Made by a program: the position numbers and the translations under genes. Positions 5,690 through 33,066 of a stretch of 64,000 nucleotides of DNA are shown piece after piece. The notes beneath the pieces are model-generated. The model saw only the letters and a program-made list of their open reading frames with translations. It had not been told where the DNA came from and did not search any database. The stretch is taken from positions 1 through 64,000 of the forward strand of contig JAAZYR010000010.1 of NCBI GenBank assembly GCA_014239555.1, written 5' to 3'. Within the stretch, counting starts at the first letter, position 1; each line of letters opens with the position of its first letter. This stretch comes from Acidimicrobiales bacterium. GTDB taxonomy: Bacteria > Actinomycetota > Acidimicrobiia > Acidimicrobiales > Poriferisodalaceae.

Positions 5690-8188
5690 ATGCCAACATG
5701 GTGCCCAATGTCGGTCCAAGAAGACGTACGGTTCAAAGCACCCGCGTTCGGGCGGAGTTTTGTTTCGAGCTACGGAAAGATCCCGCTTGAGCGCTGGACG
5801 TCTTTTTTGGTTGCTGTGGCTGCATGTGTGGTGGTCTTTTGGCGCTTAGGGCCTGCAGATATCTTCACCGACAGCACCCCGACTGGTGGCGACATGGGCG
5901 CTCACGTGTGGGGCCCCGCATTTCTTCGTGACCACCTTTTGCCTTCATTTCAGCTTCGAGGGTGGAGCCCGGATTGGTACGCGGGCTTTCCAGCGATGCA
6001 GTTCTACATGGTGCTGCCGTACCTCTTTATCGTTGTGTTCGATTTGCTGTTGCCTTACGGCGTCGCTTTCAAACTTGTCGCTATTTCCGGTGTAGTGCTC
6101 ATGCCTTTAGCCGCATGGTCCATGGGTCGACTCTCGTCTTGGCGCGAGCCGCTACCCGGTTTGATGGCAGTGGCAGCGCTGCTGTTCGTGTTTGATTTCA
6201 ATTTCACGATTTATGGCGGCAATATTGCCTCGACGCTTGCCGGAGAGTTCGCGTTTTCCATGGGGCTTGCAGCATCTCTGTTGTACCTGGGTCTTGTACA
6301 CCGCGTGTTAGAACACGGAACCCATCACGGCCGAGCAGCAGTCGTGCTGGCCGTGGTCGCGTTGTGTCACCCCATCACTCTGTTGTTTTCGGTTAGCGCC
6401 ACAGTGGTTCACGTCGTGGTTCGAGCAGTTCACGGGTTTCCTAGGCGTCTCGGTGTGAAGTCAGCAGTGGTAGCGCTGCTCCTTGCGACCCTGATTCTTC
6501 TCGGTGTGTTCTCGGCGACGTCCCGCGTTTTCCCGAGGCTGTTGGTTGTCGCGCTGCTACTGCTGTGTTTGCTACTTCTCGAATTTCGCAGTTCGATGCG
6601 TCTGCTTGCTGTTGGGGTGTTGGGAGGAGCTCTTTCAGCATTTTGGACAATACCTTTCCTGCTCCGACGCTCGTATTTAAATGACATGGGTTGGGAAAAG
6701 CTCGACAATGTCCCCGAGAATTTGTTCTTCCCTGATCGGTTAGGTGGCGATAGTGCCAAGATGGCGATCGTTTGGTTGCTTGCTTTGGCGGCTCTCGGCG
6801 TGTTGGCAGGCCTCGTGCGATGGTTCCAACCGGCCCTCCTGCTCTCAGGCATTGGGTTTGTTGCGGCCTTGGGTTTCGTCTACTGGCCTCAGCATCGACT
6901 CTGGAATGCTCGACTGCTCCCGTTTTGGTATCTATCGGTTTATTTTCTGGTCGCGGTCGGGCTACTTTTTCTCTCCGAGTCGCTTAAATCCGCTGAGGTG
7001 CTAAGCGAAGAGTCATGGCCTCGGAGCACTCCGAAAAGATGGATTTCTTTAGCTACTCCTGTCCTGGCATTAGTTGCGGCCACTGCTTTCGTGTCGCTGT
7101 ACCTTGGAGTTGCTCCTGGCGGCAGCTACGAAGAAGACGGCGATTTCCGGTGGGGGCCATTTACCGTTGCCTCAGCAGACCGAAACTTTGTCGCTGGGTG
7201 GGCAGCATGGAACTTCAGCGGATATGAGTCGCGCCCTGCGTTCCCGACCTTGAACAGTCTCATCGAAACCATGGCATCTGTTGGTCAAGAATATGGTTGC
7301 GGGCGAGCCCTATGGGAATATGACAGAGACGAGTTGGGGTCTTACGGAACGCCGATGGCGCCAATGTTGCTTCCCTATTGGACTGACGGATGTATTGGTT
7401 CGATGGAAGGACTGTATTTCGAATCCTCGGCCACCGTCCCGTTCCACTTTTTAATGCAGTCAGAACTTTCGGCTAACCCATCTCGGCCGATGCGGGGATT
7501 AACGTACCGGGGCCTCGACCTAAATAACGGAACTCGGCATCTCCAAATGTCAGGTGTTCGTTATTACCTAGCGTTCAGTGAGCGCGCGGTTGCGGAAGCG
7601 CAACGTTTCCCCGATCGTTTGGAACTGATTGCGCGATCTGACCCGTGGAGTATTTACCGGGTTCTAGATGCTGACCTTATTGAGGGTCTTGGCTACGAGC
7701 CCAATGTTTCCAAAGCGGGATTAACGGGCGGGAGGTCGTGGACCGACCCATCGACCGAGTGGTTTAACGATCCGACTAGGTGGGACGTGCTTGTTGCCAG
7801 CGATGGGCCATCTCGTTGGAACCGCGTAGATGTCTTGAATACGGGGCCGACCGCTAGGGCACGTTTTGCTCCTTCCTTAGAACGACCATTGGCTGCAGTT
7901 TCGGTGACAGGGATCGTCGACGAAGGTGAGAGAGTTAGTTTTAGCGTTGATCGGGTTGGGATACCTGTCGTTGTTAAGACGTCTTACTTTCCTAATTGGT
8001 CCGTCAAAGGTGCGCTCGGGCCCTACCAAGCGACGCCGAATTGGATGATTGTGGTCCCGACTGAAAACGAAGTTGTGTTGGAGTACGGGGCCACCTGGGT
8101 GGAGTACCTGGGATGGGTCATCACCGTGATTGGGGTAGGAAGCCTTCTGGTCGTGGCGCAAAGAAAACGTCGAAAGGCGCACGCATGA
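5690..8188 (+). CDS. Large polytopic membrane protein, PTPS-related (6-pyruvoyl-tetrahydropterin synthase-related) domain, GT-C-like
   Basis: About 832 residues. The first ~470 residues contain a dozen or so hydrophobic helices; the C-terminal half is a large soluble, probably extracytoplasmic domain, with a final membrane helix (YLGWVITVIGVGSLLVV). The early loop with GGDMGAHVWGP and WSPDWYAGFP resembles the acidic loop of PTPS-related and GT-C membrane glycosyltransferases, where an Asp binds the lipid-linked sugar. A role as a membrane glycosyltransferase using the polyprenyl-phosphate sugar made by the next gene is inference. ATG at 5690 was chosen; ATG 5708 or TTG 5663 are possible and none has a clear ribosome site. 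It overlaps the next gene as ATGA. Confidence 0.8.
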   Translation: MPTWCPMSVQEDVRFKAPAFGRSFVSSYGKIPLERWTSFLVAVAACVVVFWRLGPADIFTDSTPTGGDMGAHVWGPAFLRDHLLPSFQLRGWSPDWYAGFPAMQFYMVLPYLFIVVFDLLLPYGVAFKLVAISGVVLMPLAAWSMGRLSSWREPLPGLMAVAALLFVFDFNFTIYGGNIASTLAGEFAFSMGLAASLLYLGLVHRVLEHGTHHGRAAVVLAVVALCHPITLLFSVSATVVHVVVRAVHGFPRRLGVKSAVVALLLATLILLGVFSATSRVFPRLLVVALLLLCLLLLEFRSSMRLLAVGVLGGALSAFWTIPFLLRRSYLNDMGWEKLDNVPENLFFPDRLGGDSAKMAIVWLLALAALGVLAGLVRWFQPALLLSGIGFVAALGFVYWPQHRLWNARLLPFWYLSVYFLVAVGLLFLSESLKSAEVLSEESWPRSTPKRWISLATPVLALVAATAFVSLYLGVAPGGSYEEDGDFRWGPFTVASADRNFVAGWAAWNFSGYESRPAFPTLNSLIETMASVGQEYGCGRALWEYDRDELGSYGTPMAPMLLPYWTDGCIGSMEGLYFESSATVPFHFLMQSELSANPSRPMRGLTYRGLDLNNGTRHLQMSGVRYYLAFSERAVAEAQRFPDRLELIARSDPWSIYRVLDADLIEGLGYEPNVSKAGLTGGRSWTDPSTEWFNDPTRWDVLVASDGPSRWNRVDVLNTGPTARARFAPSLERPLAAVSVTGIVDEGERVSFSVDRVGIPVVVKTSYFPNWSVKGALGPYQATPNWMIVVPTENEVVLEYGATWVEYLGWVITVIGVGSLLVVAQRKRRKAHA

Positions 8189-29137: not shown

Positions 29138-29246
29138 AAATGTTCGGAATCTCCGCAACGAACTTTTGGTCACCAAACAGGTTGCCGCCGGCCTTGAAAA
29201 CCTTCAGCCAAAGGTCCACGCCAGAAGGTGTCGCTAAGTTGTGATC

Positions 29247-30872
29247 ATGAACGAACGTGAGAGCTCTGAGATTCCGTCCTACGGAGTGGTCATCATCGGA
29301 GCAGGCGTGTCGGGGTTGTATCAGCTCTACAAGTCACGTGAGATTGGCGTGAGCGCGTTGGTACTGGAGTCAGGAAGTGATGTGGGTGGCACCTGGTACT
29401 GGAATCGGTACCCAGGAGCCAGGTTCGATTCTGAGAGTTATTCCTATGGGTATTCATTTAGCCAAGACTTACTTGACCAATGGGATTGGCAAGAACGCTT
29501 TTCTGCTCAACCAGAAAATTTAAGATACCTCCAACATGTGGCCGAGCACTTTGACCTGCGGAGCGACATCAGATTCCAAAGTGTTGTAACCCAGTGCACT
29601 TTCGATGAAACGTCTAACGAATGGCAGGTTGAAGTCGAAGACGGATTCCGGGTGCGTTGCCGGTTCCTAGTCACAGCTATCGGGATCCTTTCCAAACCCT
29701 TGATTCCAGATTTTGACGGGATGGACGACTTCAAAGGACCGTCTTTCCATACCGCCCAATGGCCTCACGACGAGGTCGTTTTCACGGGAAAACGAGTCGG
29801 CATAATCGGTACAGGAGCTACCGCAGTACAGCTCATACAAGAAGTAGCTAAGACCGCGGACCATCTGACTGTTTTTCAGCGAAGTCCCAATTGGTGCGCC
29901 CCACTTCACAATGGTCCTATCGAACCAGCTGAGATGGATGACATTCGTTCCCGCTATGACGAAATCTTTGAACGCTGTAGGAAGTCTTTTTCAGGATTCA
30001 TACACGACTCAGATGACCGAAAAGCTCTTGACGTAAGCGAAGAAGAACGAGAAGCCCTGTACGAGGAACTTTATGCTTCACCAGGATTCGGCATCTGGAT
30101 CGGGAACTTTCGGGATGTATTGGTTGACGAAACGGCTAACGCCACGCTTTCTGACTTCATCGCACGGAAAATTCGAGAACGAGTAGACGACGGAGAACTT
30201 GCCGAGAAGTTAATCCCACGCGACCACGGCTTTGGCACTCGCCGGGTACCAATGGAAACTGGCTATTACGAGGTTTACAACCAAGACAATGTGCTCCTTG
30301 TGGATGTCAACGAAACACCCATTGAAAAGATCACCATCGACGGGATCCAATGTTCAGACCAAGAGCACCCTTTCGATCTAATCGTCTACGCGACGGGCTT
30401 CGATGCGGTTATGGGGCCCTACAAGTCAATAAAATTCACAGGCAGCGACGACTGCACTCTTGCTGAAAAATGGGAAACTGGACCGAGCACATATCTTGGG
30501 TTGGCCACAGCAGGGTTCCCAAACATGTTCACATTGGTGGGACCTCATAACGCGTCCACATTTTGTAATATGCCCCGCTGTATTGAGCAGAACGTGGAAT
30601 GGGTGTCGACGTTCTTGGAACAACTTTTCGACGCAGACGTAACACGTGTTGAGGTCGATATTGATGCTGAAGATGAGTGGACTGAACACGTGTATGAGTC
30701 GGTGCAGCGGATGCTCTTCAGCAAGGTGGACTCATGGTTTATGGGGGTGAACAAGAACATCGAGGGCCGCGATAGCCGAAACTTCATGCTCTACGTGGGG
30801 GGATTTCCCAGTTATACCGAACGATGCGATGACGTAGCTAGAGATGGCTATCGGGGTTTCATTATGAGTTGA
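29247..30872 (+). CDS. FAD-containing monooxygenase, Baeyer-Villiger type
   Basis: 541 residues. First Rossmann GAGVSG (18-23) for FAD, second GTGAT for NADPH, and between them the BVMO fingerprint FKGPSFHTAQWP, followed by the conserved GTWYWNRYPGARFD-like FAD segment. These enzymes insert oxygen next to a ketone, giving esters or lactones. A paralogue with the same layout lies at 55352-57010. Downstream of an SDR that could supply the ketone from an alcohol. GTG 29241 is an in-frame alternative two codons upstream. The end is followed by a palindrome (30876-30914). Confidence 0.94.
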   Translation: MNERESSEIPSYGVVIIGAGVSGLYQLYKSREIGVSALVLESGSDVGGTWYWNRYPGARFDSESYSYGYSFSQDLLDQWDWQERFSAQPENLRYLQHVAEHFDLRSDIRFQSVVTQCTFDETSNEWQVEVEDGFRVRCRFLVTAIGILSKPLIPDFDGMDDFKGPSFHTAQWPHDEVVFTGKRVGIIGTGATAVQLIQEVAKTADHLTVFQRSPNWCAPLHNGPIEPAEMDDIRSRYDEIFERCRKSFSGFIHDSDDRKALDVSEEEREALYEELYASPGFGIWIGNFRDVLVDETANATLSDFIARKIRERVDDGELAEKLIPRDHGFGTRRVPMETGYYEVYNQDNVLLVDVNETPIEKITIDGIQCSDQEHPFDLIVYATGFDAVMGPYKSIKFTGSDDCTLAEKWETGPSTYLGLATAGFPNMFTLVGPHNASTFCNMPRCIEQNVEWVSTFLEQLFDADVTRVEVDIDAEDEWTEHVYESVQRMLFSKVDSWFMGVNKNIEGRDSRNFMLYVGGFPSYTERCDDVARDGYRGFIMS

Positions 30873-30875
30873 AAG

Positions 30876-30914
30876 AGGCTCAGTATGCATACTGATTGAC
30901 TCGACACTGAGCCT
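30876..30914. repeat. Inverted repeat with a nested perfect palindrome at a convergent gene junction
   Basis: AGGCTCAGT (30876-30884) pairs with ACTGAGCCT (30906-30914), a perfect 9-bp stem with a 21-base spacer; inside lies the 14-base perfect palindrome CAGTATGCATACTG (30881-30894). It covers the end of the dioxygenase gene and begins 3 bases after the monooxygenase stop. It could act as a two-way transcription terminator, though no T-run follows, or as a protein-binding site. Confidence 0.5.
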
Positions 30915-32079
30915 GAGTCAAACCTTTACCTCGGACAATTTCATCGTCAAGCCAAAGGTCAAGCGCGTCGATTTCCCACCCACCCAGTAAGTCTGGCTTC
31001 GCCGACTGAAGACGCTGTCGATCCATCCACTCCGCTCCTTCGTACCGAACTGGGAAACCCAATCCATTGAGCGTGTACGCGTACACGCGACAGAGACCGT
31101 CGCCTTCTGGGAAATCACCGACATAAGACACCCATGGCGTTTCGATGCTCAACTGGTCTCGAACTGCTGCCTGTAACGCGGCGATGTAATTGCCAGCGTC
31201 CCAGTCAGCTATTGCTTTTTCGGTGAATGTGGGACCCCCAGGCAAAGTCAGTTGACCTTGTGGGTTACTCAACAAAAGCACCTCTTGATCGTTACCTTCC
31301 CTGAGTAGCAACAGGCGGGTCGTGTCAATGGTTCTGTTGCTGTGGCGGGCCAGGACCGAACGCCCGACAGAGGTGAGAGCGTCGTGGACTTGGTCGTCGT
31401 ATAGGAACCAACCGGTTGCCGGCGGCGCGTTAGCTGCCGCATATTTGTTAAACGCGCCTACTCGGTGTGAATCGGAAGTGTTTCCGACCGCTTGATGCCA
31501 CAGATGCATGTTCATCAAAAGTAAGTCGCCCCGCTTCAATTCGGGGTCGACATAGCTGTCTTCCGGAGGTCGGACGGGCACGTCGACCTCCATAGGCCGT
31601 TCCTGCCCAACGCGTATCCGTTCTAGGTGGTGGGAACCCGGAGCAACCAATAGTTGTCCAGTGCTGTGATCGAAATCGCAAAAGGGAACAGTCGTGAACA
31701 CCCAGTTCATAGACGAACCGACGGGCCTCCATCTTTTGTAATCGTTGTGACTTGGAATCCCCGCGCCTTGAGGCGTCCGGTCATAAATGACGTAGGCCGA
31801 AAGTTTGGGGTCGGCTCCAAGCACTTCAGCTGCTGCGGGCACGATTTGATCGTGCTCAGCGAGAAAGGCCAAATCGGGGTCTTTGAGGCAGTTGTTGGCA
31901 AGTGTGTATCGCCCCGGTTCGGGGTAGCTCAACTTGCGTGCATCGTACAAAGTCCCATCAAGGGGAGGGTTGCGCTGGAATCCTTGCTCTAATCGACAGA
32001 TATCAGCTTCAGAAATTTGTCCCTTCAGGACCAAAAACCCGTCCCGGTGGTACTCAGCTAGTTGTTCGGTTGTAAGCAC
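30880..32079 (-). CDS. PhyH-type Fe(II)/2-oxoglutarate dioxygenase fused to a Nudix-like domain
   Basis: 399 residues. Residues about 1-230 are a phytanoyl-CoA dioxygenase fold: EYHRDGFLVL start, iron ligands H111-x-D113 (SHNDY), and distal H195 (HLWHQAVG) with an Arg for 2-oxoglutarate soon after. From about 255 a second domain begins (LLLLREGNDQEVLLLS) with Nudix-like LTLPGGPTFTE; the Nudix box is degenerate, reading RDQLSIE where REUxEE is expected, so metal-dependent hydrolysis is doubtful. Start GTG 32079 has GGAGAAGG upstream; an extension to 32268 would overlap the divergent LLM gene. The last coding bases lie in the inverted repeat. Confidence 0.82.
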   Translation of the reverse strand: MLTTEQLAEYHRDGFLVLKGQISEADICRLEQGFQRNPPLDGTLYDARKLSYPEPGRYTLANNCLKDPDLAFLAEHDQIVPAAAEVLGADPKLSAYVIYDRTPQGAGIPSHNDYKRWRPVGSSMNWVFTTVPFCDFDHSTGQLLVAPGSHHLERIRVGQERPMEVDVPVRPPEDSYVDPELKRGDLLLMNMHLWHQAVGNTSDSHRVGAFNKYAAANAPPATGWFLYDDQVHDALTSVGRSVLARHSNRTIDTTRLLLLREGNDQEVLLLSNPQGQLTLPGGPTFTEKAIADWDAGNYIAALQAAVRDQLSIETPWVSYVGDFPEGDGLCRVYAYTLNGLGFPVRYEGAEWMDRQRLQSAKPDLLGGWEIDALDLWLDDEIVRGKGLTQAQCRVNQYAY

Positions 32080-32082
32080 TCG

Positions 32083-32090
32083 CCTTCTCC
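32083..32090 (-). promoter_or_regulatory. Ribosome-binding site fixing the PhyH-Nudix start
   Basis: GGAGAAGG stands just before GTG 32079 on the minus strand (the GGAG part is 7 bases away). It supports the 399-residue form over a longer one overlapping the divergent gene. Confidence 0.6.
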
Positions 32091-32154
32091 CCGACAGACA
32101 TAGCCTGCCATGTGTCAAGGTAATGCGAACATTCAGTGTCGATCGGAGACGCCA

Positions 32155-33066
32155 ATGCGTATAGGTATTTTCAGTGGACCGGCTGGAAAGCTCTTCAATG
32201 TGCAGGAAGCAACTGCGGATGCTCAAGCTGCTCAAGAAGCTGGGTTCCCCTCCTATTGGCTCCCTCAAATGCCTATGGGCATTGACGCCTTAACGTCGCT
32301 GAGTCACATTGGAGCCGCCGTACCCGAGATCGAACTTGGGACCGCAGTCATCCCGACGTATCCCCGACATCCCATAGTGATGGCGCAACAAGCGCTTTCA
32401 GTGACTTCCATTATCGGAGATCGACTCGCGCTGGGTATAGGGCTCTCCCACAAACCGGTAATAGAAAAGCAGTTTGGCTACCAGTTCGATAAGCCAGTGC
32501 GTCATCTGCGCGAATACCTAGAAGTTCTGAATCCGCAGTTACGGGAAGAACCTGTTCGCGTTAAAGGCGAAACTTTGACCGCTCGTAACCCAGCGATGGG
32601 ATTGAACGCGCCTGTTCCTCAAGTTCTCGTAGCTGCTCTCGGACCCCAAATGCTGCGCTTAACAGGGCGCATGGCTGATGGAACGATCACATGGATGACC
32701 GGAAATCGGACCCTGGCCGAACTCACTGTGCCCCAAATTTCGGAAGCAGCTTCGGAGGCTGGACGGCCTAAACCTCGGGTACTTGCGGGCTTGCCCGTGC
32801 TCTGCACCGATGATCTCGATGCCGGTATGGCCAGAGCATCAAAAGTTTGGCAAATGTACGGCACGTTGCCTAGCTACCGAGCGATGCTTGATCGAGAAGG
32901 TCTCGCTGGGCCGGAAGATATTGCCATTGTTGGTAACGAGTCTGAGATAGCGGATCGGCTTCAAGCAACGATCGATGCAGGTGCCGATGACATCATCGTT
33001 GCCGAGTTCGCAGGTAACCCCGATGAACGCATCCGAACCCGCGAAGCGTTGGCATCATTACTCTGA
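32155..33066 (+). CDS. LLM-class oxidoreductase, probably F420-dependent
   Basis: 303 residues of the luciferase-like TIM barrel: MRIGIFSGPAG start, ELGTAVIPTYPRHPIVMAQQAL, the GDRLALGIGLSHKPVIE loop and APVPQVLVAALGPQMLRL. This short, single-domain form resembles the mycobacterial F420-dependent LLM groups and differs from the two longer LLM proteins in the window. It would use reduced F420 or FMN for hydride transfer or monooxygenation. GGAGA before ATG 32155 supports the start. Divergent from the PhyH-Nudix gene with 75 bases between starts. Confidence 0.88.
   Translation: MRIGIFSGPAGKLFNVQEATADAQAAQEAGFPSYWLPQMPMGIDALTSLSHIGAAVPEIELGTAVIPTYPRHPIVMAQQALSVTSIIGDRLALGIGLSHKPVIEKQFGYQFDKPVRHLREYLEVLNPQLREEPVRVKGETLTARNPAMGLNAPVPQVLVAALGPQMLRLTGRMADGTITWMTGNRTLAELTVPQISEAASEAGRPKPRVLAGLPVLCTDDLDAGMARASKVWQMYGTLPSYRAMLDREGLAGPEDIAIVGNESEIADRLQATIDAGADDIIVAEFAGNPDERIRTREALASLL

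Follow-up and report, generated by a model that had tools for sequence, protein, structure and literature searches.

Introduction

Bacterial PhyH hydroxylases such as MysH, EctD, and GriE are 2-oxoglutarate (2OG) oxygenases with a double-stranded beta-helix and an HxD...H motif, about 250–310 residues long and with no Nudix domain. Canonical Nudix hydrolases, for example MutT, YmfB, and the Ap4A hydrolases, carry the box GX5EX7REUXEEXGU. The Nudix fold is used in a different manner, for ligand sensing, by NrtR and AraR, which carry in addition a DNA-binding domain. Another example is the NUDT9H domain of TRPM2, a Nudix domain fused to another protein that no longer hydrolyses, has kept ligand binding, and gates a channel by ADP-ribose (PMC4974056). 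Finally, the land-plant FAD synthetase AtFADS1 is fused to an inactive pyrophosphatase domain that has been universally retained (PMC9678776). Pseudo-Nudix domains are known, then, in regulators, in a channel, and in other fusions, and none has been found reported on a 2OG oxygenase. In fact, in the literature searched, which lay mostly outside the subscription journals, no PhyH–Nudix or other 2OG oxygenase–Nudix fusion was described, in agreement with the initial annotation of the DNA studied here, in which the fusion was taken as not known to be described.

A fusion of this kind is encoded in the window, i.e., the whole stretch of 64,000 nucleotides of an Acidimicrobiales genome that was analysed. 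The protein shares the beta-helix and the HxD...H motif with MysH, EctD, and GriE; unlike them, it has a Nudix-fold C-terminal domain and a signature, YKRWRPxGSS, that is the fusion family's own. The C-terminal domain resembles canonical Nudix hydrolases in fold and in profile homology, but lacks their box, contains an 8-residue insert, bears an extra C-terminal tail, and is matched by no family model. The Nudix fold is also common to NrtR and AraR, although the partner here is an oxygenase and no DNA-binding domain of the winged-helix type found at the C-terminus of NrtR was detected, a 17-residue tail ending the protein after the Nudix fold. AtFADS1 is likewise a metabolic enzyme joined to an inactivated pyrophosphatase domain; in that case, however, the chemistry of the partner explains the origin of the fusion, whereas the fusion described here has no known nucleotide link. 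The family spans two phyla. It offers a defined set of proteins for studying the conversion of a hydrolase fold into a substrate-binding or regulatory module of an oxygenase, and it draws attention to an oxidative step, as yet unassigned, in uncultured bacteria.

The Fusion Gene and its Dioxygenase Half

The fusion gene occupies positions 30880..32079 of the minus strand (399 amino acids plus stop), with a GTG start at 32079, as given by the open reading frame and its translation and by homologues that align end to end; the extent and frame originally assigned to it were correct. A probable ribosome-binding site, GGGGAGAAGG (32083..32092, minus strand), lies 3 bases upstream of the GTG, and a scan of the gene for promoters and terminators gave nothing above chance. 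An artefactual fusion, arising from a frameshift or from the assembly of metagenomic genomes, is ruled out by the same full-length frame in dozens of genomes.

Residues 10–206 (31462..32052, minus strand) form a PhyH Fe(II)/2OG dioxygenase domain (Pfam PF05721, E 2.8e-18), the protein scoring 67.4 bits where the gathering score is 22. The HxD iron ligands are H111 and D113 (31741..31749, minus strand), the first present in 33/33 main-family sequences and the second in 32/33, the remaining one having a gap, and they are followed by the family signature DYKRWRP[VI]GSSM (motif YKRWRP[VI]GSS). The distal ligand H195 (31495..31497, minus strand) is found in all 33 sequences of the main family and in 3/3 of a second subfamily, so that the three iron ligands named in the initial annotation are seen in every aligned relative having those columns. 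The likely 2OG-binding Arg is R206 (31462..31464, minus strand), invariant in the 36 aligned relatives and located eleven residues after H195, the spacing of the 2OG-binding Arg in human PHYH. The PhyH half, judged by its aligned residues, appears catalytically intact (H111, D113, H195, and R206). Its nearest PDB relatives by sequence, with weak E-values, are MysH (5.4e-05) and EctD (4e-04), and fold matches at Z 15–17 were obtained in the search with the full-length model. The protein is not an ectoine hydroxylase as defined by TIGR02408, with 22.8 bits against an equivalog cutoff of 336.5.

A Nudix Fold in the C-Terminal Domain

The C-terminal domain with its tail comprises residues 246–399 (30883..31344, minus strand). 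An AlphaFold model of residues 242–399 alone, for which 40 relatives were aligned and a canonical Nudix row was deliberately kept out, reached a pLDDT of 83.3 and a pTM of 0.82. With this model, Foldseek returned 254 PDB matches below 1e-3, the best ones listed being Nudix-fold proteins, and the best 50 rows of a second structure aligner were all Nudix-fold proteins at Z 11.4–13.4. The top match was YmfB (Z 13.4, with 128 residues aligned at 2.7 A), and the sensors NrtR and AraR (Z 12–13) and the recognition domain of MUTYH were also among the matches; rows less than 1 Z unit apart are counted as tied. The full-length model, built from 12 sequences, had a mean pLDDT of 64; its confidence was low near the active site and in the tail, and it was too weak to position the tail and the insert. 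The fold search made with it was filled by PhyH rows and was uninformative as to the C-domain.

Profile comparison points in the same direction. Outside the fusion family, a profile of the C-domain searched against 200 genomes of a gammaproteobacterial family and 398 genomes drawn phylum-wide gave just three matches (1e-4 to 3e-4 per genome), all of them Nudix proteins with the PGG...E...REUxEE core. In an hhalign control of 182 comparisons, including 174 unrelated neighbour proteins, the top 10 included 7 of the 8 canonical Nudix proteins, and 5 of those 7 were the window genome's own Nudix proteins, which had not been chosen for similarity. The control and the structural matches rule out a chance likeness, and the C-domain is Nudix in both fold and ancestry. 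The initial annotation had regarded the last ~145 residues as Nudix-like, and had proposed structure prediction as the check; a Nudix fold without the canonical set of acidic metal ligands is what the prediction gave. Family models, in turn, do not recognise the domain: none from Pfam or NCBIfam matches the C-terminal part of the window protein, the sole Pfam NUDIX match across 40 C-domains was a weak NUDIX_2 hit below the cutoff (E 0.31), and the profile found one match, at chance level, among the sequences of solved structures. Therefore, routine annotation would give only a PhyH-type dioxygenase and leave the second domain hidden.

Loss of the Canonical Nudix Box and the Motifs Conserved Instead

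The start of the Nudix box survives as LPGG, residues 279–282 (31234..31245, minus strand), in which L279, P280, and G282 are each present in 33/33 sequences. An insertion had been suggested to displace the remainder of the box, and it is real: 8 residues, I290–N297 (31189..31212, minus strand; IADWDAGN in the window protein and IPDWDxGN in the family), separate the LPGG loop from the Nudix helix. The degenerate helix comprises residues 304–312 (31144..31170, minus strand), AAVRDQLSI in place of REUxEExGU, since HMMER, hhalign, and MAFFT alike align A304-A305-V306-R307-D308-Q309 on R52-E53-U-x-E56-E57. The register initially proposed, RDQLSIE for REUxEE, is ruled out by these three methods, being displaced by three residues, and the Gly–Glu spacing described with it holds when counted from G281, but the profile alignments use G282, which leaves E287 one residue short. 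With the insert in place, the canonical box is absent from the fusion family: E53 has been lost in 33/33 main-family sequences, position 308 (E56) is E or D in 22/33, the position of E57 is Q in 23/33 and E in 4/33, and the three metal Glu occur together in none of the 33. The conclusion that Glu residues have been lost is unchanged by the error of register, because no sequence keeps three acids in the earlier register either. The claim that the set of metal-binding Glu is missing thus stands, although E56 is often still acidic.

Conservation is found elsewhere in the domain. E287, D292, D294, and N297 are invariant in the main family (33/33), and within the insert all 33 sequences have the I, D, W, D, G, and N of the motif. 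The C-terminal tail R383–Y399, RGKGLTQAQCRVNQYAY (30883..30933, minus strand), has R383, G384, K385, R393, Q396, and A398 in the 32/32 sequences that reach it, with the consensus RGKGxSQAQxRxDQYAY and the variation pattern RGK[GA]x[ST][QE]Axx Rx[DN]Q[YF]A. On average, pairs of sequences are 80% identical over residues 287–297 and 65% over the tail, with 59% for the PhyH half, 49% for the whole Nudix domain, and 42% for the old Nudix helix, which is among the most variable parts, the IPDWDxGN loop and the tail being the most conserved parts of the C-domain. From the conservation of insert and tail we infer a shift of the domain's functional weight away from the Nudix helix, towards the new loop and the C-terminus. 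On the same grounds, the site in use would be made up of the insert loop and the tail and not of the old Nudix pocket alone, and the two motifs are clear enough to be tested.

Distribution, Inheritance, and Selection

A search for the fusion in other genomes, also proposed at the outset, located it in one gammaproteobacterial family and two acidimicrobial families. In the window's own family it is present at 64–97% identity in two genera, in another family of the same order at 43–46% identity, and in the gammaproteobacterial family in about 35 of the 200 genomes drawn, fragments counted. It was not found in other groups within the phylum-wide samples of 396 and 398 genomes, nor in a plasmid collection. 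Among 100 genomes, the 12 with a close match to the PhyH half (at least 37% identity over the whole half) all carry the C-domain as well, and the next PhyH matches drop to 25–38% identity (E 1e-11 or worse) and are mostly of single-domain size. The PhyH half is therefore never alone among its near relatives, and the fusion is obligate in its clade. The distances of one half track those of the other (correlation 0.91, reached by 0 of 5000 shuffles), as expected from one old fusion. In 12 main-family pairs, dN/dS was 0.05–0.22 for the C-domain and 0.04–0.14 for the PhyH half; both halves, the C-domain included, evolve under purifying selection.

A second, distant PhyH/pseudo-Nudix subfamily exists in the same gammaproteobacterial family (L053:8187-9581, L054:7870-9267, and L055:7736-8968), and one genome, G868, contains both subfamilies. 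The motifs of the second are HxDYKPWRCVGS in the dioxygenase half and LPGC, LPRF, or LPVF where the main family has LPGG, and its C-domain is further altered, with only D294 and N297 of the insert kept and an Asp replacing E287. Since the architecture is the same, the fusion predates the split of the subfamilies. In a tree from a quick search with a far outgroup, the two acidimicrobial groups branch at separate places among the gammaproteobacterial rows, which suggests two transfers of the fusion between phyla.

Possible Roles of the Nudix-Fold Domain

The explanation that we favor, with a confidence somewhat short of even, is that the protein is a two-domain Fe(II)/2OG oxygenase whose non-hydrolytic Nudix-fold domain works in cis by binding or enclosing the substrate. 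The domain would have given up diphosphate hydrolysis and would now serve the attached oxygenase, with the new loop and the tail binding the substrate or closing over it, as a lid or a substrate-recognition domain; the pathway might be the oxidative catabolism of a hydrophobic or terpenoid-like acid, partly as CoA ester. A bolder proposal, which we consider unlikely, is that the DWDxGN loop of the insert and the basic tail make a rebuilt binding or catalytic site that acts together with the oxygenase site on one substrate, in what would be a new class of two-domain 2OG oxygenase. As a counterpoint to a non-hydrolytic role, the acidic residue at E56 in 22/33 sequences and the two invariant Asp of the insert make metal binding, and some chemistry, possible.

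Alternatively, the Nudix-fold domain could be a regulatory sensor that binds a nucleotide-type metabolite (ADP-ribose, NAD, or CoA) and tunes the dioxygenase, as in NrtR or TRPM2. NUDT9H is a precedent for a non-hydrolytic, ligand-gated Nudix domain (PMC4974056), and NrtR and the sugar sensor AraR stand near the top of the structural comparison (Z 12.5–13.0); these matches are tied, however, with many hydrolases and indicate the fold only, and the shift of the conserved surface from the Nudix helix to the insert and tail is unlike a kept nucleotide pocket, so that a sensor seems doubtful. The domain may instead be a pure scaffold, binding no ligand, through which the oxygenase is stabilised or dimerised, which would agree with a fold kept while the catalytic residues are lost, and with the retention in land-plant FAD synthetase of an inactivated pyrophosphatase domain of no known role (PMC9678776). 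The invariance across two phyla of 6 residues of the 8-residue loop and of several tail residues would be more than scaffold loops usually need, and we give this explanation a low probability.

A rebuilt hydrolase has also to be weighed, in which D292 and D294, together with E287 and the often acidic position 308, would form a new metal site, and hydrolysis would persist. The insert stands immediately before the Nudix helix in the AlphaFold model, and the residues concerned are those that are invariant (E287, D292, D294, and N297, 33/33) or frequently acidic (308, E or D in 22/33). But E53 has been lost in all sequences and E57 is mostly Gln, and the second subfamily has kept only D294 and N297 of the insert, with Asp at E287, all of which makes continued hydrolysis distinctly improbable. 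Finally, the idea that the C-domain is the decaying leftover of an accidental fusion, for which the lost catalytic box and one same-genus genome with gene fragments only might speak, is barely credible and largely refuted by selection and distribution, given the low dN/dS (0.05–0.22), the invariant residues common to Actinomycetota and Gammaproteobacteria, and the lack of any PhyH relative of the clade without a C-domain.

Gene Neighbourhood

The preferred reading, a cis-acting substrate domain, can be set beside the genes around the fusion. The convergent neighbour in the window (29241..30872, plus strand) encodes a Baeyer–Villiger-type flavin monooxygenase (BVMO), whose best NCBIfam match, below the cutoff, is the terpenoid BVMO PtlE (pentalenolactone D synthase, 1.6e-73). 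The divergent neighbour (32110..33066, plus strand) is an F420-dependent LLM oxidoreductase (TIGR03564, 328 bits, above cutoff). Further genes in the window encode F420 PPOX-like, CoA-transferase-like, acyl-CoA dehydrogenase-like, enoyl-CoA hydratase-like, and SDR proteins. At other loci, the fusion is accompanied by an acyl-CoA ligase, an epoxide hydrolase, a PQQ dehydrogenase, an Nramp-type transporter, or LLM monooxygenases, and the neighbours vary by lineage, with no partner gene universally conserved across the carrier neighbourhoods, so that they do not point to any one pathway. A CoA-linked catabolic substrate fits the BVMO, acyl-CoA ligase, CoA-transferase, and enoyl-CoA hydratase genes, and the context hints weakly at oxidative catabolism, for which the substrates might be terpenoid-like acids handled in part as CoA esters.

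In the window's own family, the BVMO neighbour is kept in L010, L011, and L013, the LLM neighbour in L010–L013, and the PPOX neighbour is also conserved. In one congener (genome G029), the PPOX, LLM, and BVMO neighbours are intact and the fusion gene between them is reduced to fragments (L013:1298-1700), through either in-place decay or an assembly fault, and the gene may be dispensable there.

Several arrangements were seen in other carriers. At L079:3290-7847, a linalool dehydratase/isomerase-like gene and an AMP-binding acyl-CoA ligase gene directly precede the fusion on the same strand, and the three may form a terpenoid-acid operon. At L061:8467-11869 and L066:5364-8766, the fusion runs at its 3' end into a same-strand gene for a PQQ-dependent dehydrogenase, an overlap that suggests translational coupling. 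At L058, L083, L084, and L085, the next gene downstream, on the strand of the fusion, encodes an Nramp-type transporter. Finally, in a gammaproteobacterial metagenome-assembled genome (L003:3395-4234, 6001-7185, and 7197-8015), three dioxygenase-like genes are clustered, of which the middle one is the fusion and the other two were recognised by eye.
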